Shown here: positions 4,023-54,578 of the stretch, piece by piece
Layout of the letters: every line of letters begins with the position of its first letter
Position numbering within the stretch: position 1 is the first letter of the stretch
Source: Clytia hemisphaerica
Lineage: Eukaryota > Cnidaria > Hydrozoa > Leptothecata > Clytiidae
Assembly: GCA_902728285.1 (NCBI GenBank)
Contig: CACVBU010000575.1
Location: 383,298 to 447,297 of the forward strand
Direction: 5' to 3'
Length of the DNA stretch: 64,000 nt
Notes under the pieces: generated by a model
What the model saw: only the letters and a program-made list of their open reading frames with translations
What the model was told of the DNA's origin: nothing
Databases searched by the model: none
Program-made: the position numbers and the translations under genes

Positions 4023-6516
4023 TTCGAATGCTTATCAAAAATACTTAAATGCATAAAGCGCCTTTTGACAAAGAACCTTTTGGCTTCAATCCTTTTTGCT
4101 TGGAAAAAAAATTACGTCATAAAAATGTAGCGCGCGCTCGAAAAAAAAACACATTTCAACTTTTTCAACCGATACGTCAGATCGCGCGTGGAGACCGGCC
4201 TTAAGGTTTTGAAAGGCCGAAAATCTCAACAAACTTAATACACCTTTTCGACCGTAGTCGAACGGTCAGGTGCGTGTCACTTTATTATTTATTTATCCCC
4301 TAAACTCGATCCAATCCTTTTTTTATTGTGCGAAAAAAAAAAGAATGGGATGGTTTTAGGGTGGTAAAACGGACGAAAAAATGCCCGCGCGGCAATTGGC
4401 GATTGGCTACAGTCGAAAAGGGGTATAAACAAACTTAATCTCGGTCAAATGGTTAGCTACATAACTTTTAGAGTAAAACCTTCAAAATTTATTTGGACCT
4501 CCTCATGGTATTCTTTCTCAATTAAAGGTAGACTGGCCATGGCTCCAAATTATAACAAAATTTTCATGTGTTGAAGAAAATCTAATTGTCAGTTGAAGTG
4601 ATACTTCGATCCTCTTAAACCGCAAAATTTTATCACCTGCATAGGAGGGTGTTATAAAGTGACTACATTTACCCTTAAATGGTTCATTATGCACTCCATC
4701 ACTGCGTTGAAATGGGTCGGATTGTTTTTTGAAGTAGGAAATCACGATATCCTTTTGACCTTTTTGTTGAGGATTTTAAGATTGTTATCTCTCCCTTCAA
4801 CTTCACACACACTTTTTTAAGTCGCACGGGATTTGAGGGTTTTATAAGAACATTTTCCTTATAAGAATCGTTATGGATACACTTTCACGATTCGGACCGA
4901 ATAAAGTTATTTAGCTTGTTACGTATTGCCTGGAGTGATATGCCAAAGAATTGTTAGCTGGCGAGTAAACTCTTCTTAGATTCTCTCTAAAGAATGTAAA
5001 GATCGATCTGAAACCTCTTTTTTGGTATTCGATTCTATAAGAACTACAATAAATCAGATTTCTTAAGAATAGTTGTATCATAAACAGTCAGATTTTACCC
5101 AGTTGGATTTTCACGTGGAAAATCTGCTTTAAACACGCTCTTTGAAAAAAAATGCCCTTCGAAGTAAAAGATTTCGTACGTAATGTGAGATTTTTTGGAG
5201 AAGTTAATGTGATATAATGTTTTCAATGTTGATTTTGGTTACAATTTGGTGAAATGACGAAGCAAAGATTTTTCCGAGTATTTCGGAGTCTATTTGCGAA
5301 TGTAAGGTTCTTCAAATTGTAAGATATAAGGCAACGAAGTGTAGATAAGATAGTTTGTTAATAGATTGTAGATAATTTTAAGCTGAGTCGATTTTTAGTG
5401 ATACATAACCAATATTTTACATTTTCTTGGTAAAACGTTGTCATTATAAAAAGTCTGAGTGTGGGCCTTTTTGCTGTGTTTGATCAGTTCAATCAGCAAA
5501 GTCAAGCAGTCAATTCTATCAGTTGAAATAAATAATTGGTTCTGAGTAAGACATTCTGTATACGCTCAGATTTCATCAGCTTTTATACCTTTGGCTATAT
5601 CGTGTTTCAAAATTTGTTATTTTTCTCAGCTGGATAGAATTTTGAAAGTATGTGATTTTTTTTGTTGACCCTTACAAAAACCCGATTGTCAAAATTGATA
5701 TTCTCGTATAATATTCTGGTTTGGTTTTTAATTAATGGCTAACCGATTGTTCTAATAATTTTAGGCTTGGACTACACACATTTAGAGCATGCATACCCAA
5801 TGCGTGGCATAGATGGACTGAAATTTTGAAAAAAAAACTCAAATGAAAGTCGTGTTCAGTCAAAATCTTCTAAATAGGAAAACGTGATTCTTATAAAATT
5901 GGTGTAAGATTATTCAATGTCAACGAGAGTAATATGATATTTTAAAAGTTTTAAAATGTTTATCGATTGAAGTTTATATAGAATTTAATCTTCCAAATGT
6001 GTTTCGTAAAATTGAATTTTATCATTTGGAACGAAGTTTGACTCAAAAAACGGTGTTCGTTTTCACGTGCGCGTGACTGTCTTTCGCGAAGAAGATCAAG
6101 AAGGAGGAAGAAATTTCGAAATACTTTGTAACGTGAGTTTTCTTTTCATCTTTCGACCACTATAAAGATACTCTCTTTTTGATACGTACTACTTACTTCG
6201 CTATCTTTCTATTACTAATGAGTATGAAATATAAATCAACGGGTATCCTAAAAAATACGGTAAATGATGAAAATTCAGTCTTTATTAGAATTCCCTAATC
6301 GATTAGCTCTAATTTTGAAGTTGACACCTTCTAAATTAAGTAGATTGTCCAGAAGTTGTTATAACCCCTCCCAACGAGAACAAAAAGTAGCCAAGTAGAA
6401 AGTAGTGTTGGTATGTTTTACTGTTGGTAGTAGTGATTTGTTTGTCTTGTCGATTTTTGTCTGTTCATATTTTTACTCATTGGGTAACGTAAAGGTTTCC
6501 TACTTTTGAAATACTA
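4023..6516. other. no gene recognised
   Basis: A pair of inverted segments (CACCTTTTCGAC near 4241 and GTCGAAAAGGGG near 4412) suggests an old element of about 190 bp. Otherwise the sequence is AT-rich, without splice-linked coding segments that I can recognise. Confidence 0.4.
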
Positions 6517-6859
6517 CACGTTTTTTTTATATAAGGAAGAAGTTTATAAGGAACTCGAGGCTGAAAATGGTCCAAAAAATAAGGAATTGTTAAGGAACTG
6601 CCCAGGCTGAGGATAAAAAAACAAGTATTAAGGAACAGTAAGAGTTTTCACTTGAACTAGCAATTATCTTGTATTCTCCGAGTTCTTTGTTGAAATAGTC
6701 GATGTTTCCATAATACAACCCATTTTTCATAGTTTCCTTTGACCTGTAGCAGCTATGTAAATAAGGAACTTGATAAGGAACTTTGAGGCTGAAATTCTCT
6801 GTAAAAATAAGGAACTCCAGGCTCAGAGCAAAGTTAAGGTTCCTTATAAAAAAAACGTG
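6517..6859. mobile_element. TA-flanked MITE, AAGGAAC subfamily
   Basis: The element starts CACGTTTTTTTTATATAAGG and ends with its inverted equivalent AAAAAACGTG, flanked by TA on each side. The interior iterates ATAAGGAAC (followed by GAGGCTGA) in place of the ATAAGAACAT of the commoner subfamily. The termini tie it to the CACG family. Confidence 0.8.
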
Positions 6860-7149
6860 TACATCCATTACATCTTATAGATTGTAAGCCTTATGGAAGA
6901 GTGTAGTAAAGGCCCCTGGGGTCCCTCTAAATTTAGATTTTAAAGAGATACGGTTTCATTCAGAGAATCGTAAACAAGATTGTCTTGATAGCTTTTTAGA
7001 TATGAGTTCATAACACGATTATAACAGGATTTTAATCAGTTCACCTCGATTACTCGTCTCGATGTCTCTATAAAAGAGACTACTAAATATGCTTGATTTG
7101 ATCAAATGTTGACAGGTTTTATCGTTTGTAATGTAATGTAAATGCCGAA

Positions 7150-20280: not shown

Positions 20281-21243
20281 TCGATTCTTTGATATAACCG
20301 TTTTAAGTTTTGTTCAATACGCTTTACTATGAAATTTTGAAGAATTTTTATTTCAACGAATGTTTGACTCTTTAGTTATATCCTGTATTTCTTTGTGTTT
20401 GTAATTTAAATTTGTAATTTTCTTGATTGAATAATTGCTACGTGAAATATGTATACTGAAGAAATTCGGTCTGAATGATATTGAATGAAAAAGCAATTTT
20501 CTTTCATTAATACTAAAGTGTATCGCAATTTTTTAATTACGTGAATCTCAGTTTTTATAAGAAACGGTCTCTAAATTAGAGCACTCAATTCAAATTACTT
20601 CGAATGACTGTAGCAAGAGTCAAAATTTATTGGAGTGGGTTTTGAAGCCCTTTTTTCATTATTGAACATAGTTGTTGAGGACTTTAAATTCTATTATTGA
20701 AAGGCTCACAATTTTTGACCCAATCGATAAATTTTGCTATTTCCAGCTATATTCTGACTGATTTTTATGTTATATTCTTACTTTTAACAATGTTCTTATA
20801 AACTAAAGCAATTACTTCATTGAAAAGGCATTTACTAATTGTGATTTAATACTGACGAAATTTCACAAAAGCATTTCATTAATTTATAATCCTTCGCATA
20901 CAAAAGGAGTTCATTATGGTATTAGGAAGTTAGTCTATTGTTCCCTTTGTCTTAATTACCAGTCTAAACAATAGAACGGTCGTTAAGTTAGTAATTAACG
21001 AACTTTTCTACTCGGTATATAATTCTCATGAGAGACAAAGTTCATTAAGAAAAAAATTGGATTTGTCGTTACTTGAATTGACTTAAACCTGAATTTGTAA
21101 TTTATTATTAAAGGCACATAAAATAAAATATTACCCAAATTTCGTTTGGGGCACTTATTAATAAATTGAACAATATCACTTTGGAAGAATCGCACAATTA
21201 CACAATTATTTTTCTGGTGTGGACGGAACCTTAAGAATCCAAG
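20281..21243. other. upstream region of innexin gene 1
   Basis: No coding feature. The last 100 bp lead to the exon 1a start, with the context CCAAGATGGCG, which is nearly the same as that of innexin gene 2 (TCAAGATGGCG). A promoter is presumably here, but I cannot identify elements with confidence. Confidence 0.4.
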
Positions 21244-24200
21244 ATGGCGTTAGTAGCATCTGATATAAAGGGGATGCTTAGCATCACCATAAAATCTCGA
21301 CACGATTCACATACTGATCAATACAATCGTATTTTCATGGTGAAAATTTTACTGGTCACATCCCTGGTTATGGGTATTTCATGGTATTCTGATTCGATCT
21401 CCTGTATTATTCCAGGTAAGTGCAACCACGAATAATCCATTTATTCTCCTATTCCAAAATTTTGTTTATCTATAGTCTTGAAGAAGCATCACCATGTCTT
21501 TTGTGGCGACAGACCTTAAGGGTCTGCTTACATTGAACATCAAATCGAGACACGATGGATACCTTGATCAATATAATCGTATTTTCATGGTCAAACTTCT
21601 TATGGTGACAACCATTGTTATGGGATTGAGTTGGTATGGGGATTCTATCAACTGTATTATTCCTGGTAAGGTTGACCATTCATGAACATGTTGAGAACAA
21701 TGGTCACACACGATGTTAAATGTTTTTCTAATGTGTTTGTTGGTTTTTCCCCTTCTCACTCTGACTAATGACTAATATCTTGGGGAGATTATTCTAATAT
21801 TGGCTAGCCTATTGTAACAAACACATTTGGGATAAGGCTAAGAACATTTGAATTTCATGTCTTTACTAAATTTTGTTATTGAGACAGGGGTGTAGGTTTC
21901 AAAATTCATCAAACTAACATTGCAAACGATATAGGTATGTAACAAATCCCTTTACTACAAATAATCCCAATTCACTAACCCCCGTCTTTGTTCTTTAGAG
22001 GCTCACGGTATCAGTGGAGGATTTGTCTCGCAAACCTGTTGGATTCAGGGGGTATATGTATACAAAGAATTGAAAGACAGAATTGATGAGGTGGCTTATT
22101 ATGGAATCCCAAAGGATATTACATTGGATGGATATTTGACGAATACAGAAAATAAAGAACTATGTCCAATGCATCCAAAACTAGACAAGAAACCTAGCGA
22201 ACATTGTACTCACATGCACAAGACTTTTTTCTTACAGGTAAGTTACTAGTCTAGAATGACTTCGACAAAAGCACGCCTTTTACTTTTATTTTAGTTTTAT
22301 TTGGATTCTAGAACAAAGTGTTTTAAAATATTCTTTTGGAAATTCCTAAAAAATAGCAAATTTTAGACGCTGTCTTCATTTAAAAACAGAAGACATTTCT
22401 TTCTATCTTTATCTAGTCTGTAAAATATTTTTATCTTCGGCGTAATTTGACTGCCATCTACCACAGAAGCTATAGATCAAAACATACAAGTTTTTTTTAT
22501 AAGAACATCCAAAAATTTTGAAGCCTTCGGACAGCTTCGGATGCTCTTAACTTTTTGAGATTTAAGCCTGAAAATTTTATTAGCTTGTGCTTATTTTCTC
22601 CTTTTTGTGAGTATTTTTGTCCGCTTTTCTAAGAAATCGGGTGTTTTAGAGTTCGCGAAGCCTTGAAACTTCCTTAACATGCTTTTTTAACATTTTGGCA
22701 ATCAAAGCCTTATGTTCTTATATAATTTGTTCTTATAAAAAAACGTGTATTACAAAAGCAAAACATACTTCAAGTTTATAATTGCTGATGAGCAATTAAG
22801 ACAAATTCCGGTGTGGTGTTGTTATAGAAAATACCTTTTTTGTCTATTTTCCTCTTTCTTTTGATGCAGGAGAAAATGTCATAGACTAAATATGGCTCTC
22901 TTTAAATCATCATTTTAAAATCATGATACCAAAGTTGAAATCAAATTTCATTTCCCTTACTGTGGTGTTGAAAACATTTGGACCTTACTCCGATATCTTG
23001 TCAAAGTTGAATTTCCTTTTTCTCGCGTTTTCCGGTAAATTGAAGTTTCGTCCTTAAAAAACATTAAAATCGTAATCAGTACATGTTTCTTTCTCATGTA
23101 AAAGCAAAATTATTCCACTAAAATAAAATAATGACTTTGAGTCTAGTATCAAATGTATGAAATAGAGAGAATTTAATCTGAAATACTTGAAACTTTCAAA
23201 TAGTTGAGAAGATATCCTTCACCTTGCCCAATGGTGAATAAAGAATCTCTCAGAATATCGAAAAGAAAATCGTGATCTAAGCGACGATAAACTTCCAATA
23301 GTTGTAGAGAGTTTTTATCTTCTCCTCATAAAGTGCTTGATAAGCTAATAGAGCGTTACATACTATAATAAAGAGTTGACACAATATCTGTGTTTCAAAT
23401 TCAGAGATAAACTTCCCATAACCCAAACTCTCATTCTCTTTTCTTTCAGTATCAATATTTCCCCTTCTTGGTCGCATCATTCGCTATCTTGTTCTACGTA
23501 CCCTACATTTTCTTCCGCACCGCAAATGCCGACCTCATCTCTCTCAAGAACAACATCAAAGAAGGAGAAGCAGATGCTGAAAATATCGCAAAGCATTATT
23601 TCTCAAAAACCACCAATCCACAACGTAACAATATGCTACGAATCGTATTCAATATTTTGATTAAGATTCTTTATTTAGTGGCCAACCTGGTTTGTTTCTT
23701 AGGGCTTGATCGCCTACTGAACGGAGAGTACATTGGATACGGTAATAAATGGATTCAATGGTCGTCACTCGATAATGCTGTTCAATACGATTATATGGGA
23801 ATGAGAGACCACCCCAAACCAGGTTTGTTTACTTAATCCGAATCGGTTTCATATTTCCCGATAATTATTCCCCGGTTCTCCTCACTGTTCAACGTATGAC
23901 ATCACCCTAAACTTGTTTTAAACTTTATGTTAATTCTGAATCGGTTTTTCAATACTCCCCGGATTTCTCAGCGTCAATTTTCTGGCTCAAAAAGGACGCC
24001 GTTAAACGGTCTTTCGCCGGCGCGGAAATAATTGCTTCATTCTATAGAATGATAGTCTAATACCTCGGGATTGTTACACTCAAGCCTTTTACAAATACAG
24101 TCCTAGATTCTTAAAACTACCAGTCGATATACCTTGCATGTGACTCCTTTGAACAAACAAATATTAATTTCTTTTCCCACAGGAAACGAGCTCCTCCCAC

Positions 24201-24902
24201 CATTCGGTTACTGTGAGGTCCACGCCTCCGCCAAAGACATCAAAGAATCATACGCCAACAAACATAAATTCGTATGTGAGTTATCACAAAACGTGTTATA
24301 CCAATACGCCCTTGTTGTCTTGTGGTTCGCCCTTATCATTGGAATTGTTGTATCGTGTGTTGGAGTTCTTGTCTTGTTCATCCATTATGCTATCGGTATC
24401 TTCGGATTCAAGTATGTTTTATTTTCTTTCAAATTATTCTTTTTCATGCTTAGATTTCGAATACAAGTTATGAATTTGCGTCAAATTTCCTTATGTATCC
24501 CTCTAGAAAACGTAACGTAACCCAGCTGACACGCTCGTAACGCCCATATAACGTTAAAATGACGCCGTGTGCTAGCTGGATATCAACAACATAGAACAGC
24601 TTTTCAGCTTTTCAAATTTTCAGCATTTTGTTTATAACTAACCATTCTCTTTTTCTATTTACAGAGCACAAGGACCAACCGGAAAGAAGATCTTCAAAAT
24701 GCTCTCCTTCAGGGAGTTGGAATACTTGGAGTTCATCCGTAAGCGAGATATTGCTCTCTACGGGGAAGTACTTGACAAACTGAAGGACATCAAACTTGGT
24801 CCACACGCACCAAGGGAGGAGTACCCACCCAGAAATGGAGATGACATTCCATTGTACCCAACCAAAGGACAATATTCAGACAAGCCTGGATACCAATTGT
24901 AA
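21244..24902 (+). CDS. innexin gene 1 (gap-junction/hemichannel protein, 416 aa)
   Basis: This gene encodes a four-pass innexin forming gap junctions or hemichannels in the plasma membrane. Exons, found by hand: 1a 21244-21415, 2 21999-22237, 3 23450-23822, 4 24183-24411, 5 24665-24902. Phase is continuous and each length matches paralogue gene 2, apart from the C-terminal tail. Visible features are TM1 (about 30-48), E1 with CIIP (C54) and CWIQG (C71), TM2 starting YQYFPF, TM3 (about 203-225), E2 with two Cys (GYCEV, FVCEL), TM4, and a short hydrophilic tail. The first extracellular segment also contains extra Cys (ELC, EHC) beyond the two usual in E1. Exon 3 ends at an unusual donor, G|GTTTGT. 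An alternative first exon (1b) lies 78 bp after 1a. Introns hold two MITEs (22487-22747, 24521-24580). Family assignment is secure; ctenophore affinity is inferred. Confidence 0.93.
21494..21665 (+). CDS. innexin gene 1 alternative first exon 1b
   Basis: This is a second complete first exon of exactly the same length (172 nt, phase 1 end) as exon 1a. It encodes its own Met, N-terminus, TM1 and the start of E1, ending NCIIP. It differs from 1a at many residues (starts MSFVATDLKGLL against MALVASDIKGML). The donor is G|GTAAGG. Either 1a or 1b can join exon 2 in frame. Joining 1a to 1b through the acceptor-like CTATAG at 21469-21474 would hit a stop after about 14 codons, so the exons must be mutually exclusive. 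Whether choice is made by alternative promoters or splicing cannot be told from sequence. Confidence 0.85.
22487..22747. mobile_element. CACG/AAGAACAT-family MITE in innexin 1 intron 2
   Basis: Flanked by TA. The right end is AAAAAAACGTG. The left end is mutated (CAAGTTTTTTTTATAAGAAC). The interior is the family consensus in reverse orientation. Confidence 0.85.
23823..23875 (+). promoter_or_regulatory. conserved intronic block after innexin exon 3 donor
   Basis: The first 53 nt of this intron are identical, apart from one base by eye, to the corresponding intron start in gene 2 (28749-28801). Key parts are GTTTGTT, TTAATCCGAATCGGTTTC and CCCGATAATTATTCCCCGG. The donor GTTTGT is weak. Translation through it adds LFT and a stop in both genes. 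It may be a splicing or intron-retention control element, or a trace of gene conversion. Confidence 0.6.
24521..24580. mobile_element. CCCAGCTGG-family MITE, eroded copy
   Basis: CCCAGCTGACACGC at the left and GTGTGCTAGCTGG at the right, with internal AACGTT. It is shortened relative to the 98-bp copies at 1174 and 33887. It sits in innexin 1 intron 4. Confidence 0.6.
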
Positions 24903-26933
24903 AGAGGAAGAGAAGACGGGAACACAGTCTAAGTAATCATTTTAGTCCGGTTGCTTGAGATTGTTTTTAAACTTGAAACATTGTGAGGTCCAGCTTCTTT
25001 CACCACCATGGATGTGTTTTTTTAAAATGAGGATTTATTATTATTCATGATTTGGGTATAGAGGCTAGTTAAGCGAGAGCACCATCGGCTAATTCAGTAT
25101 GAAAAGTTCTTATACACTGTGTGGGAGAACATAGTTTTTTCGCTCTCCCTCGCATGCACTTCACTTTCTATAACATGCACTTTAGTATGTTTTGTAAGTT
25201 ATTTTTCTAGAAATTCGAAGATAAAAAGCGATATTTTTAAGAAGTAAACTTTTTGTATGAACAGTAGTGAAATTTATGGCTATAGGGCGTCAATGGCGTT
25301 TCACGCCCAAAAGCCACCCACGAAGCGAAGGGAGTAGTGAAGTATTTTTTGAAATGAAATAATTTTTATTTTAACTTTGTAGATAGATTTACTTTTTTCA
25401 AATAGTTCCAAAGATTGATCTATGGTGGAGATCCCTAAAAGTTATTCGAAATCCTTATAAGGAATTCCCCAGCTCTCTCCACCATAGATTTCCTTTATCA
25501 GATTATTTTGTGTGTGTGTTTGTTTGTGAGTGTATTTTATGTTTTTTATTTTATGGAGACGCCATTTTTTGTTTGTTTTTGACATCATGTTCCTTTTTAT
25601 TGTCAACGGCGTATAATGCTCACTAATTCATCTACCACTATGTACTTTGAGAGCTTGTTCTCAGAAAGTACTATCGTGTAAGCCAGGCTTTAGAAGTAAT
25701 GCTTGAACTAGAATATTCGAATTCTTGAGCATTTTGTTGTTTACTTTTGCCTGAATTTGTTTAGGGTTTTCGTATAACTTTTGTTCCAATTTAATTAAAT
25801 GACTTTAATAATAACGCTTTTTCTTTAAATCGCATTCCAACTATATTGTAAAAAACTTTTTATCATACTTTTTTCATATGTTTGTAAGAGGGAAGTATTA
25901 TTGACGGATTCGAGGTGACCGAGTGTATAACTCGAACCCGTAATTGGTATATTTTTCAACTCGATTTATCGGCAACTCGGTCGCTTCAAATCTTTCTAGT
26001 TTATAGACTATACTACCTAGTTCCTTAAACTTTTTCAACAATTTCTAAAAAATTCGTATTATTTTCTTATACGACCAACTCTAACATAAAAATTTTAATT
26101 GTAAAACATTTTCAAAAATTTTCCTACAAAAATTACATCAAGTTTTACGATAATTTATGTATATTTCTTCACAGAAGTTTATTTGAAAAATATATTTTGG
26201 CAAGTGTCGATAAAAAAGGGGTGTGGTTGTTTGTTTTTTTCGAGGGCGGGCGTTTTTTTGGAGGCGAGGATTAAGAAGAGTGACTTCTGACTTGGGAGCT
26301 GAGTAGAAGTCGGTAATAATAAGCTCCGCAGCATCACTGGGCAAACTGTCTTTTTGGTGTAAAACCCTACTGAGACAAAATCACATTAAGTAGGAAACCG
26401 CATCAAAAGAATACATTTATTCACCTAATGCCTGGTTTTATCTAGATTCTTTTTCTCGTTCTAACAATTGCTGACTGGATTAAAAGTACTAATACCTTTA
26501 GAAGGTTGACATCCAGATTTTTCTTTTATCTTCAAGGATGACTTACCTTGAGAAGGTTTGCACAAATTAGATTTGATGTTTCTTGGTTGAAATATTTTGG
26601 AAATAAATGTCAATCTTTCCCAGGCAGCTTTCTTGCGTGCTTCTTCTACTTGGTAAATAGAGGGAGCTTAGTAATGCTCAGAAAATTAGTAACTTTACAA
26701 GCTTCCTGGCATGTTTTTAAGCATTTTTGTGTGTGACATTCAAAATTAGAGGTGTAGATTTAAGGTTTCTAAAATAAAATTACCTTTGTATTATCTATCG
26801 GACATGTTGCATTTCTTTCGGACAGACTATTCAACCATTTCTTCTCATTATATTTTTCAGAGAGCAAACAAACAAAATAAAATAATAACAAAATTAACAA
26901 TACTGGTGACGTCATCAAAACAATAAATTCAAG
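24903..26933. other. intergenic region between the two innexins
   Basis: 3' UTR of innexin 1, then about 2 kb without a recognisable exon. It holds a 71-bp palindrome (25419-25489, ATCTATGGTGGAGA ends) and an imperfect inverted pair (about 25908-25991, GACCGAGT arms). The upstream end of innexin 2 must lie in its last part. Confidence 0.5.
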
Positions 26934-29900
26934 ATGGCGATGGTAGCAACGGATCTCAAGGGGATGCTTAGCATCTCCATAAAATCCCGACACGATTCAC
27001 ATTCGGACCAATATAACCGTATCTTTATGGTGAAATTAATGTTGGTTTGTTGCGTTGTCATGGGAATCTCGTGGTATTCCGATTCAATCTCGTGCATTAT
27101 TCCAGGTATGAATCCCGATTTTTTATCCAAGTTTCCCCGAATTTTGAAAGTGAATTCCTGGATAGTAATTTATGGCTACCATATTGTGTCCTGATCAAAT
27201 TTCGTCCAATTTTGAAACCTTTAATCCCAGTTTCAGCCCTGTTTCCTTTATTGGCTCGCAGAACAAATTTTCGCAGTATAATAATATCAATAGAAAGTAG
27301 TGTTTTAGATTTTTCTCGAATTATTCAGTTTCGATCATTAATCTTTAGTTTCCCGATTTACTCAAGTCGAGTTTCATCATTAAAATAGCTTTATAAATAA
27401 TATTTTTCAGGTGCTCACGGAATTGACGGGGGTTTTGTCTCCTCAACATGTTGGATTCAGGGGGTATACATCTATAAAGAATTGAGAGCACGTGTTGATG
27501 AAGTGGCTTATTTTGGTATACCCAAAGATATCGATCTTGATGGTATTCTTCATGATACACCAAACAAAGAGTTATGCCCACTGGAACCAAGATTGTCAAA
27601 GAAAGTTAAGGAAGGGTGTACCCCAATGGAAAAGACTTATTTCCTCCAAGTAAGCCTCGTCACCAGTCCTCTTTCCGTCTTTTCTTGATGAACAGACTAC
27701 ACTTGAAATTTTATTACGATTGAACCATCATAACTCTGATGTCTCCCTAACTCGAGCAAGTTTGCTTGTTCTTTCAGTTTACAATGCCTTATAAACCTTA
27801 CTCCATAACTCGAACAAATTTTTGCTCCCAGTGTGACTCCATTGCAATGTCTTCTGACATTATATCAGGGACCCAATAGCTGATTGGTTGTAAGTGACGT
27901 AAAGTTAGTCAAAATGTCATTTTCAACCAATCAGCTGTTGGGTCCGTTGAAGACATTGCAATGATGTACATCATGAATATCCAAAACATTATGTAATCCT
28001 CTACTATCCTTTCTTTTCAGTACCAATACTTTCCCTTCCTGATCGCTGCTTTGGCCATCATTTTCTATGCCCCATACCTCTTGTTCCGTGCTGTCAACAA
28101 CGATCTCATCTCATTGAAAGATAATGTGAAAAGCGACGAAAAAGACGCTGAAAAAATCGCCAAACATTACTTCAGTCAAAAGACTAACCCTAACAGGTAT
28201 ATAAAAATGTTTTACCGGACGTAATTCTCAATTCTATAGGAGTAGCTTCCTCCCCTACTTTCGGGCACGTAGCTAAAGAATGGGTTTCCCTTGACTGCGG
28301 TTGCAAACTCACTCATTTACTTAATTCTAAATTTCTCACTTGGCAATCGCTGGAGGATAGATAACGACTTTTTTTTACTTGATAGGATTTCAAGGAGATT
28401 CAAAGTAAAGCTTCTCCTTGGTTTGTTTCTTGGAGTCGGTTTGAGTATTATAGATATTCCTATATTCGAAGTTCGAAATAGCGAAAGTCCACTGTAATTA
28501 AGACATGTATTTGCACTTATTTGACCAGCTGTTATTTTCAATCTCCAACAGAAACAATGCAGGTCGCATTCTTGGAAACATCTTGGTCAAAGTTTTATAT
28601 TTGGTTGCTAACGTGGTCACACTTACCGGATTAAATCGATTGTTGAATGGAGAATTCATCGGATACGGAAACAAATGGATCGAATGGACCGGCCTTCAAA
28701 ACACCATCCAATATGATTATATGGGAATGAGAGATCACCCTAAACCAGGTTTGTTCACTTAATCCGAATCGGTTTCATATTTCCCGATAATTATTCCCCG
28801 GCTTTCCTTACTCTTCAAAACATATGAGGTTAGAAATCACCCTAATAGTTTTGTTTACATATCCCAAATCGGTTTCATGTTTCCCAAAAGTTCTCCCGTA
28901 TATAACCAGGATATAACCCACCTTTGACTCGCCTCAGAGAATCCTTTTTCATACACAACAACCTACATTAAAGATAAAGACACTTAACCACAAATCTCTC
29001 TTTTCCAAATAGGAAACATCCTTCTCCCACCATTCGGTTACTGCGAGGTCCGCGCGTCCGCTAAAGACATCAAAGAATCGTATGCCAATCAGCATAAATT
29101 CGTTTGTGAATTATCTCAAAACATTTTGTACCAATACGCTTTGGTTGTCTTGTGGTTCGCCCTTATCATTGGAATCGTTGTTTCCGTCATCGGACTTTTG
29201 TTGTTGATCATTCACTACATTGTCGGTGTCTTTGGTATCAAGTAAGTTTTTTTTCGGACAGAAGAACAAATTTTCGTACACTCTTGTCTATTCAAATTCA
29301 TAGATGAAATTATTTGACTTTAGTTTGATAATCTTAAGTAAGTTGATGAATTTTTTTTTCAGACAGAGTCAACTTAATTTCATAATTTCGAGCACGATTA
29401 ACTTACTTCGTTACCTATTGATGAGGCGCTAACATAATTTTAAAACATAATTTTCAACATGATTTGTCCTACTCTCAAAATTCACTAGAAATTGTACAAA
29501 TTTTACTGTGTCGTATTATCGTGCAATATTTTGGTAATACAGTCGTATTATCGTGCAATCTTTTGGTAATACGGTCGTATTATCGTGCAATATTTTGGTA
29601 ATACGGTCGTATTATCGTGCAATCTTTTGGTAATACGGTCGTATTATCGTGTAATCTTTTGGTAATACGGTCGTATTATCGTGCAATCTTTTGGTAATAC
29701 AGTCGTATTATCGTGCAATCTTTTGGTAATACAGTCGTATTATCGTGCAATCTTTTGGTAATACGGTTAGTGCTCTTTAATTCAATGTAACTAAGATCCG
29801 CTTCATCATTTAATAATATCGAGAGTTGCCATCAATAAGAAACAAGAAACTCGACGCTCTATCATACGATACGCTCCCTTCGATGAAAATTAATTCCCCT

Positions 29901-30224
29901 TGGAAATCAAATTAGTAAGAGAGCGTCAACTGTATTCACGAGCCTTTTTATCAAAAATTTCGTTTTTCATTATTTAGAGCTGATGGACCAGTTGCCAAGA
30001 GAATCTTCAAAACACTGTCGTTCCGTGAGTTGGAATACTTAGAGTTCATCCGAAAACGCGATATCGTCCTTTACGGAGAGATCTTGGACCACCTGAAAAA
30101 CGACCGCCTTCACGAAGTCGCCCCGCCCAGCAACCGCGATGACGCCCCACTTTACCCGTCTTTACCAAACAAAGACAGGTACCCTGATGAACAAAAACGA
30201 CCTGATTATGACGGTGGATATTAA
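26934..30224 (+). CDS. innexin gene 2 (gap-junction/hemichannel protein, 419 aa)
   Basis: Tandem paralogue of gene 1, about 2 kb downstream on the same strand. Exons: 1 26934-27105, 2 27411-27649, 3a 28021-28196, 3b 28552-28748, 4 29013-29241, 5 29978-30224. Exons 1, 2 and 4 have the same lengths as in gene 1. Exons 3a and 3b together equal gene 1 exon 3 (373 nt), so this gene has one additional intron (28197-28551). Conserved features are the RHDSHSDQYNRIF N-terminus, CIIP and CWIQG in E1, YQYFPF in TM2, YDYMGMRDHPKPG in the E2 region, PPFGYCEV and FVCEL, TM4, and an FRELEYLEFIRKRD motif starting the C-terminal tail. The tail after that diverges and is acidic/basic. No second first exon was found. 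Introns contain a MITE (27841-27962), a 32-bp tandem array and a pogo-like MITE. Confidence 0.93.
27841..27962. mobile_element. MITE with ATTGCAATGTCTTC inverted ends
   Basis: This element of about 122 bp has long inverted arms: ATTGCAATGTCTTC, then GGACCCAATAGCTGATTGG, mirrored at the right with CCAATCAGCTGTTGGGTCC. It lies in innexin 2 intron 2. Confidence 0.8.
28749..28801 (+). promoter_or_regulatory. conserved intronic block, innexin 2 counterpart
   Basis: See 23823-23875. It has the same weak GTTTGT donor and downstream sequence. A degenerate repeat of its core (AAATCGGTTTCATGTTTCCC) follows about 70 bp further on. Confidence 0.6.
29510..29765. repeat. 32-bp tandem repeat, 8 units
   Basis: Eight consecutive 32-bp units start at 29510, 29542, 29574, 29606, 29638, 29670, 29702 and 29734. 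Units differ at few positions (ATATT/ATCTT, GTGCAATC/GTGTAATC, final A/G). Each unit contains the short inverted arms CGTATTA and TAATACG. It lies in the last intron of innexin 2 and abuts a MITE end. Confidence 0.95.
29765..29932. mobile_element. pogo/Tigger-like MITE abutting the tandem array
   Basis: The right end GAGAGCGTCAACTG is followed by TA. The left end (CGGTTAGTGCTCTTTAATTC) is degenerate. Internal segments match the element at 39290-39463 in reverse orientation (GATACGCTCCCTTCGATGAA). Confidence 0.65.
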
Positions 30225-32055
30225 GTATGTTTCAAAACCAGTATACCTCAAAAGTGGAAAGGATACTTCAAAACCATACCAAGGGATGTGTCAAAACCAG
30301 GGCATGTAGAATGCTTAGACGATTAGAAAATTAAGATTCGCCTAAATTCATAGAATTGAGTCTTATTCGAAATTTTCCTCAACGAAACCTTTAGAGTGGG
30401 TAGATAAACCTCGTAGATGTGTTTTTGGTTAAGTATGCACCATCCGTTTTCTATTTTTGTAAATCTATCAGACAACCTTGAGAACCTTGAGGGTTTTCTC
30501 TTCGTGGCTCGATTTGTAGATATTCTATCAAGCTTGAAAGGAAATCCCGCCTTCGTTTTCATTTTTCATTAGAATCCTTCTATAGTAATTACGCCATTTT
30601 TCGCTAGTATTTTTTCGTAATTACATATTTTTCGATACTTCCACATTCTTGTAAAACGTTTTTTTAAGCAATTTCATTTATTTTTTTGTTTTCATTTTAG
30701 AAAATTGTTCGCAAGCATTTTTCTGTTTTATGTTTTAAAAAGTACCTTCAAGCTCCATTTTAGTTTTTATTTCTGACGTTGATTTTGTCATTATTTTGGT
30801 GGTCAATGCTAGTTCTAGCTCAGTTCTGCTGAAATTTTCCTGAACTTTTTAATGGTAGAATTGTAGCATTAACCACAAGATTTTAATGGCACTTGGCTGG
30901 TAGCATCCAATTTTACAAATTTCGATTTTAAGTCATTTTAATGTTTTTAAAACTTTTATGTTTTTTGCATATTCTAGTTTTTATGGGATAACATTTTTGA
31001 TATGAAGTGAAATAAGGTCACTTACTTTTTTTATGGGAAGAGTCTTAATTCAAAATTGGTGTCGCTGTTAACGAAATTATATATTTTCGAAATTTTGCTG
31101 ACTCAGCAGGCATTGAGACAAGAATAAAAACTCCTTTTTTCACTCACATCACTCAGGGTAACAATAGTATATTAACGTAACGTTTTTTATTAGAAGAAAG
31201 CTAAAAAGTAATATTTTAGTAGTATTTTGGAAAACCAAAGTATTTTTCATTGTATAATAGATTTCATCACCGACTTTTGTAAAGCCCTGTAATCCTGTTT
31301 TTTTCTCGATATAGTAAAACTTTTTATGACCAAAAACACAATAAAAAACATGGACTGTCGATTCATTTTCAGCCTCCTTCCCCTTTTTTCCAAATTGTTC
31401 TCACAATATCGAGTTCTTGCAATTTTCAAAGATGTCCTTATTCAATTGAATTTTGACTTTCTTTGGATTACAATAAACTGAAAATTCTCTTGTATTTCAT
31501 TTTAAAATCTTGAAATATTCAAAACTTCTTGATTAAAATATAATATAGATATCTACAAAGCCTTTAGAAACATTACGTACAGCGCGTCTGTCCGAAAAAA
31601 AAAAGGAATCATGATTTATATATGTTTTGACTCTCTAATTCGATCTTCATAGGTCCAAAAATTGTCTTCGAATTAGAGAAAAAATTGAATAACAGAGGGT
31701 AATTTAAACTATTTTCCAGCTTAGAGAACCAATAGTCGTTTACAGAAAGATCCGGATAGTAGAAGTTCGAATTAGAGTGAAATGACCTCAGTAAAATGAG
31801 GTGGAAAATCCAGGTTGATCAGTAAAACGTGGTCGAAAATATCTAGGGTGGTCCAAAAAATGAGAAAACAAAATCCAAAAGGGGGTTCTGAAATCAACCA
31901 AATCAAATAAGAGGTTGTAAAAACTCCAGCTTTTCCCAATATAAGAAATCTCAACATAGGACCAAGTCACTGTAATATAAGAAATTATGAAGATATTACT
32001 TTATACAAAAATCGCCGGCTCCTTTTTTCCGGATACACGCTGTATTGGTCATTGA
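30225..32055. other. intergenic: innexin 2 3' side to LVN-like gene A 3' side
   Basis: AT-rich. ATTCGAA/AATTAGAGA-rich remnants of the pogo-like family lie around 31630-31790. A fragment of the GGAGTTTTTA family (about 31893-31931) is also present. No gene recognised. Confidence 0.4.

Positions 32056-38219: not shown

Positions 38220-54578
<16,359 letters not shown>

Follow-up and report, generated by a model that had tools for sequence, protein, structure and literature searches.

The window analysed here, a stretch of 64,000 nucleotides from Clytia hemisphaerica (contig CACVBU010000575.1, positions 383,298 to 447,297 of the forward strand), encodes two innexins, gene A (21244-24902) and gene B (26934-30224), which are tandem neighbours about 5 kb apart and share an 87-base tract (A 23789-23875; B 28715-28801) that crosses the boundary of exon 3 and intron 3 unbroken and is identical at 84/87 positions. 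This conserved junction is genuine and exceptional. As judged from the sequence comparison, it may be a cis-acting element under purifying selection, kept since the duplication and acting on splicing, a reading to which we give a probability of about 0.4. The selected control element proposed in the original prediction, which was made from the DNA alone, is thus retained as the best single explanation, although a gene conversion with fairly sharp edges remains a rival. The tract and its intronic part are located as follows.

23789..23875, plus strand: conserved junction tract of gene A, comprising the last 34 bases of exon 3 and the first 53 bases of intron 3; 84/87 identical to gene B
23823..23875, plus strand: intronic block of gene A, beginning with the donor GTTTGT and read through in the frame P-G-L-F-T-stop; 52/53 identical to gene B
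28715..28801, plus strand: conserved junction tract of gene B, running from the end of exon 3b through the opening 53 bases of the intron homologous to intron 3 of gene A, as aligned with gene A
28749..28801, plus strand: intronic block of gene B; 52/53 identical to gene A

About 53 intronic bases with a single difference, preceded by 88 coding bases with about 20, had been reported originally, and both counts are borne out, as the two intron starts are identical at 52/53 positions (T in A and C in B at intron position 8) and the coding bases at 68/88, with exactly 20 differences. The contrast had, however, been placed at the splice site and the exonic differences called mostly synonymous, neither of which holds: 18 of the 20 differences lie upstream of the tract and just 2 in the final 34 exonic bases, so that conservation begins 34 bases inside the exon, while 8 of the 20 fall in same-residue codons and 12 in residue-changing ones. 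All three differences within the tract are C/T transitions, and its edges are fairly sharp (84/87 inside vs 63/100 columns just downstream). The chance of at least 52/53 identical bases is P = 2.7e-18 at a background identity of 0.43, as at four-fold sites, and 4.5e-6 at 0.75.

The coding sequences of A and B are identical at 845/1233 aligned bases, with about 66% identity in exon 3 (247/375), and their four-fold sites at 43/99, which indicates that silent change is far advanced. Introns 1, 2 and 4 are unalignable between the two genes (scores of 22-23 vs shuffled maxima of 30-32); intron 3 reaches a score of 119 vs a shuffled maximum of 26, and its final part gives no alignment (19 vs a shuffled maximum of 28). 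In the control set, which contains 21 donors from seven tandem innexins on two other contigs, compared as 63 homologous pairs, intron starts are identical at 17.3/53 positions on average and never at more than 26/53, and exon ends are as similar as those of A and B, or more so, in 28 pairs. Intron sequence outlasting the coding sequence between old paralogues is unusual, and A and B stand alone among 64 comparisons (their own and the 63 controls).

A DNA search for the block in the whole genome (417 Mb, 951 contigs) listed matches in A, in B and in a decayed second copy of B, counts which are lower bounds, the second copy of A not being among the matches listed. On this distribution a repeat or mobile element is not supported. 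Protein and DNA-pattern scans of bacterial, archaeal and viral contig collections, where such a genome is not expected, gave no match, and no report of a conserved innexin intron element was found in searches of the open-access literature.

The degenerate second copy of the core that had been noticed downstream in both introns is present and larger than described. It belongs to a tandem duplication, located some 100 bp further on, that copied the end of the exon and the region of the donor along with the block.

23898..23962, plus strand: second, decayed copy in intron 3 of gene A, with the core AATCGGTTT at 23939; 50/76 columns identical to the first copy
28814..28898, plus strand: second, decayed copy in gene B, within the homologous intron, with the core at 28867-28885; 62/83 columns identical to the first copy, also found by blastn and, separately, in the whole-genome search

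Alignments as good as these were obtained in 1/500 shuffles for gene A and 0/500 for gene B. The second copies become recognisable from about 12-22 bases past the end of the tract and are identical to each other at 63/100 columns, and the core AATCGGTTT is unchanged across all four copies. Because they lie at matching places in the two genes, the tandem duplication most likely predates the split of A and B. In both second copies a T is aligned with the G of the donor and a GT dinucleotide persists one base earlier, whose use as a donor may be conceivable. At the three positions where the first copies of A and B differ, the second copies carry T every time, which suggests two changes in the exon of A and one in the intron of B.

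In the minimum-energy folds of both genes, an exonic arm pairs with an intronic arm across the donor, and the left edge of the tract in A is the first paired base of this predicted stem.

23789..23810, plus strand: exonic arm of the predicted stem in gene A, pairing with 23845-23866; duplex -20.0 kcal/mol
23845..23866, plus strand: intronic arm of the predicted stem in gene A, from the minimum-energy fold and the duplex
28715-28736 with 28771-28792, plus strand: predicted stem in gene B, one pair longer at its base; duplex -18.2 kcal/mol
23822..23844, plus strand: possible inner helix, pairing the donor GGUUUG (23822-23827) with CGAAUC (23839-23844)

The mean probability that the two arms pair is 0.79-0.85 in three of four context lengths for A and 0.68-0.80 in all four for B. 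The inner helix belongs to the minimum-energy fold of B but is missing from that of A, its pairs having a probability of 0.28-0.31 in A and 0.41-0.43 in B. One of the three differences in the tract turns a G-C pair of the stem into G-U, and two lie outside the helices. With the exon shuffled, duplexes as good were obtained in fractions of 0.0085 (A) and 0.0145 (B) of 2000 shuffles. When the best junction-spanning stem is scored independently of the chosen arms, 3.1% of 1500 window positions reach the values of A and B, as do 1.2% (A) and 0.5% (B) of 600 shuffles each; a test tied to the arms, which were picked after the fold had been seen, gives 0.3% of 1500 positions and 0/500 shuffles. Among the 192 synonymous encodings of DYMGMRD, ranked for pairing with the block, that of A is 2nd, that of B 16th and that of L023, a paralogue which has QYDYMGMRDHP in common with the two genes and no intron at the junction site, 160th; weighted by codon usage, P is 0.017-0.029 for A and 0.11-0.14 for B. 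Across the four copies, 84.4% of cells can pair, vs 35-58% with the partner slid, and one double change is seen among what are two nearly identical sequences and two decayed copies. As these tests share one sequence and followed the fold, they are counted as a single modest piece of evidence, and an RNA stem across the junction is modestly supported, P lying between 0.005 and 0.14 according to the control used.

A selected splicing element could act as follows. In the pre-mRNA, the last exonic bases (GAUUAUAUGGGAAUGAGAGAYC) would pair with the intron start (GGUUUCAUAUUUCCCGAUAAUU), forming a stem that would enclose the donor in its loop, where the donor may also pair with CGAAUC. Folding, or a protein binding the folded or unfolded form, would set the frequency at which intron 3 is removed, and the hairpin across the donor is, in this folding model, the most likely means of doing so. 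Transcripts retaining intron 3 would meet a stop after GLFT and would be either decayed or translated into a subunit that forms no channel.

The frame read through intron 3 is GLFT-stop in A and B alike. That read-through would reach the same stop in both genes, as had been predicted, is hence borne out, as a mere consequence of the sequence identity which adds no separate evidence. The stop is presumably located in the second extracellular loop, before both loop cysteines and the fourth transmembrane helix. The donor itself, CAG|GTTTGT, had been described as weak, which does not set it apart: its pairing energy with the 5' end of U1 is -7.2 kcal/mol, in the middle of the range of 14 donors (-11.8 to -4.0; A and B included, the donor of L045 one base out of register, and the U1 end unmodified), and GTACTT, GTTAGT and GTAGAC are among the 21 control innexin donors. 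Weakness of the donor is accordingly not supported as the key feature. A minor-spliceosome intron is rejected, as the donor GTTTGTTTAC, judged by eye, is unlike the U12 type.

Several results weigh against a selected splicing element and its predicted stem. In the longest context the stem of A drops to 0.04, other pairings being preferred, and with the intron shuffled (2000 shuffles) the duplex gives P values of 0.058 (A) and 0.106 (B). Among 32 other innexin donors, one has a junction-stem score of 0.83 and that of L040 0.81, vs 0.828 for A and 0.824 for B. Total folding energy is ordinary relative to shuffles (z of -0.43 and +0.28), and the four-copy pair count does not surpass column shuffles, 120/500 of which do as well. 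The mean unpaired probability of the donor is 0.41-0.50, vs 0.12-0.63 at eight other donors, so that folding does not occlude it beyond the other donors of A and B. The stem tests are post hoc, and A and B, being nearly one sequence, are not independent. The second copies on their own do not fold into the stem, and the block is absent from L040, L041 and L042, distant innexins with an intron at the same site.

Of the RNA structure suggested originally, the stem across the junction is predicted in both genes, total folding energy being ordinary, and the palindrome CCGAATCGG is rejected as a separate hairpin, since the isolated intron block folds no better than shuffles. The second copy is rejected as an independent structured element, since its stem is not formed. 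A known structured RNA is also rejected, as Rfam 15 gives 11 matches at E up to 5 within 21000-30500 and none over either block.

A more elaborate form of the splicing element appears quite improbable. Here, the same junction of both genes would carry a bipartite exon-intron RNA switch, in which the exon codons are held for pairing and the decayed second copies, with their altered donor, compete for it, so that full-length innexin subunits and subunits cut in the second loop would be tuned jointly. If a splicing switch is true, RNA structure would give the animal a direct means of adjusting electrical coupling through both genes together.

RNA secondary structure at an exon-intron junction affects donor use in systems of the MAPT (tau) exon 10 and SMN2 exon 7 type, as described in PMC11802352. 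The hairpin at the MAPT exon 10 donor and the donor-masking stems of the SMN2 exon 7 type resemble the junction structure predicted here, but they were investigated experimentally and concern exon inclusion; the structure of A and B is a prediction in which each arm has about 22 bases, the loop contains the donor, and retention of the intron would end the protein. The low donor accessibility of the donor-masking class was looked for in A and B and is not found. Genes of RNA-binding (SR) proteins contain ultraconserved elements tied to unproductive splicing (PMC4379411), which are similar in that unusual conservation lies beside a premature stop (here GLFT-stop). In contrast, those elements are conserved between species and belong to splicing-factor genes, while 53 intronic bases in two paralogues of one genome, known at the level of DNA, are concerned here.

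The main rival, which we consider somewhat unlikely, is a short gene conversion, whereby about 87 bp were copied between A and B recently, long after their divergence, and serve no function. The original prediction named a conversion tract with sharp edges as what would refute it. The edges are fairly sharp, the three differences are all transitions and the two genes lie in tandem about 5 kb apart; in its shortness, high identity and fairly sharp edges the tract resembles a microconversion tract between tandem duplicates. An older exchange could also account for exon 4, where 15/25 four-fold sites are alike, vs 28/74 for exons 1, 2, 3 and 5 pooled. Nevertheless, such an intron start is absent from all 63 control pairs of the seven other tandem innexins, even though 28 of these pairs have exon ends as similar or more so; exon 3, at about 66% identity, is a poor substrate, such identity being low for recombination; and the tract of A starts at the first paired base of the stem. 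If gene conversion is true, the case would be a caution against taking paralogue identity in tandem genes for constraint.

Next, and less likely, comes a regulatory element at the DNA level, an enhancer or promoter of co-regulated tandem genes which would cross the junction by chance and of which the second copy would be a homotypic repeat. The block contains TGTTTAC (TGTTCAC in B), TAATCC and GATAA, where TGTTTAC may be forkhead-like and TAATCC Otx/Pitx-like; such motifs are, however, short and expected by chance in AT-rich DNA. The sameness of the core in four copies and the modest support at the RNA level fit this explanation, as does a mild genome-wide excess of the 19-base core, which with up to 2 mismatches is found at 15 places, of which 3 are the copies of these genes and 12 lie elsewhere, vs 3 places for the reversed-pattern control. 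Viewed by eye, most of the 12 share little outside the core, L052 and L054 having a few flanking bases more on one side or on both. An enhancer or promoter would, on the other hand, need neither a splice-junction site nor a paired arrangement, the donor itself lies within the tract, and no further copy of the block is among the matches listed in the genome DNA search.

Editing by ADAR, in which an exonic adenosine would be recoded in an exon-intron duplex before splicing, is very improbable: an exon end paired with the intron start across the donor, as predicted here, and a conserved intronic complement match the layout of GRIA2 R/G, an intron-guided ADAR recoding hairpin, the predicted stem sets the first base of an AGA codon in a mismatch and ADAR-type deaminase domains are encoded in the genome (7 matches on 4 contigs), but the candidate adenosine faces A and not C as in the GRIA2 type, its 5' neighbour is G, a poor context for ADAR, and the arginine of that codon is retained in many aligned paralogues. 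Recoding sites are, moreover, described as likely scarce or absent in Hydra (PMC9989829).

Innexins are numerous in the genome, some with long uninterrupted frames. Gene A contains five coding exons, the first of which has a possible alternative, and gene B six; both proteins reach the PF00876 profile (cut-off 25 bits) with 92.9 bits for A and 97.5 bits for B.

21244..21415, plus strand: gene A exon 1a, which may serve as an alternative start of the coding sequence
21494..21665, plus strand: gene A exon 1b, the counterpart of 1a, whose frame stays open into exon 2
21999..22237, plus strand: gene A exon 2
23450..23822, plus strand: gene A exon 3
24183..24411, plus strand: gene A exon 4
24665..24902, plus strand: gene A exon 5, ending in the stop codon; the complete protein matches PF00876
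26934..27105, plus strand: gene B exon 1
27411..27649, plus strand: gene B exon 2
28021..28196, plus strand: gene B exon 3a
28552..28748, plus strand: gene B exon 3b
29013..29241, plus strand: gene B exon 4
29978..30224, plus strand: gene B exon 5, ending in the stop codon; the complete protein matches PF00876

Exons 1a and 1b of gene A are arranged in tandem, each with its own ATG and donor and both in frame with exon 2, and the joining of exon 1b to exon 2 gives an open frame for a protein of 416 amino acids. The first exon of gene B matches exon 1a at 83% of residues vs 71% for exon 1b. An extra intron (28197-28551) splits in gene B the exon that is undivided in A (23450-23822), and L023 has an intron nearby, at yet another place. 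Intron 2 of gene B contains an inverted repeat (27864-27951) with below-threshold Rfam microRNA matches on both strands, by its look a small inverted-repeat element, while intron 4 of the same gene contains 8.1 copies of a 32-base repeat with 96% matches (29510-29767). Further along the window, the minus strand contains a frame of about 515 codons without interruption (47104-48651), which matches cytochrome P450 (PF00067, 249.7 bits).

The control innexins come from L034-L039 (C355:1020000-1057000 and C142:250000-269999), where four-exon innexins form one tandem array of five genes and one of two; several intron-intron repeat matches occur there, but none of the 21 donors compared is followed by a conserved intron start. 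One of these loci, L037, also contains a tandem array at 5676-7001 (C355) with a period of roughly 185 bases, the adjacent units of which are about 93% alike. L052 (C594 near 3420631), one of the other places with the core, resembles by eye a coding exon of another gene, which looks zinc-finger-like; an exon edge there is accompanied by a decayed partial copy about 124 bases off (approximately 1490-1560 and 1615-1660), which may be another instance of exon-edge duplication.

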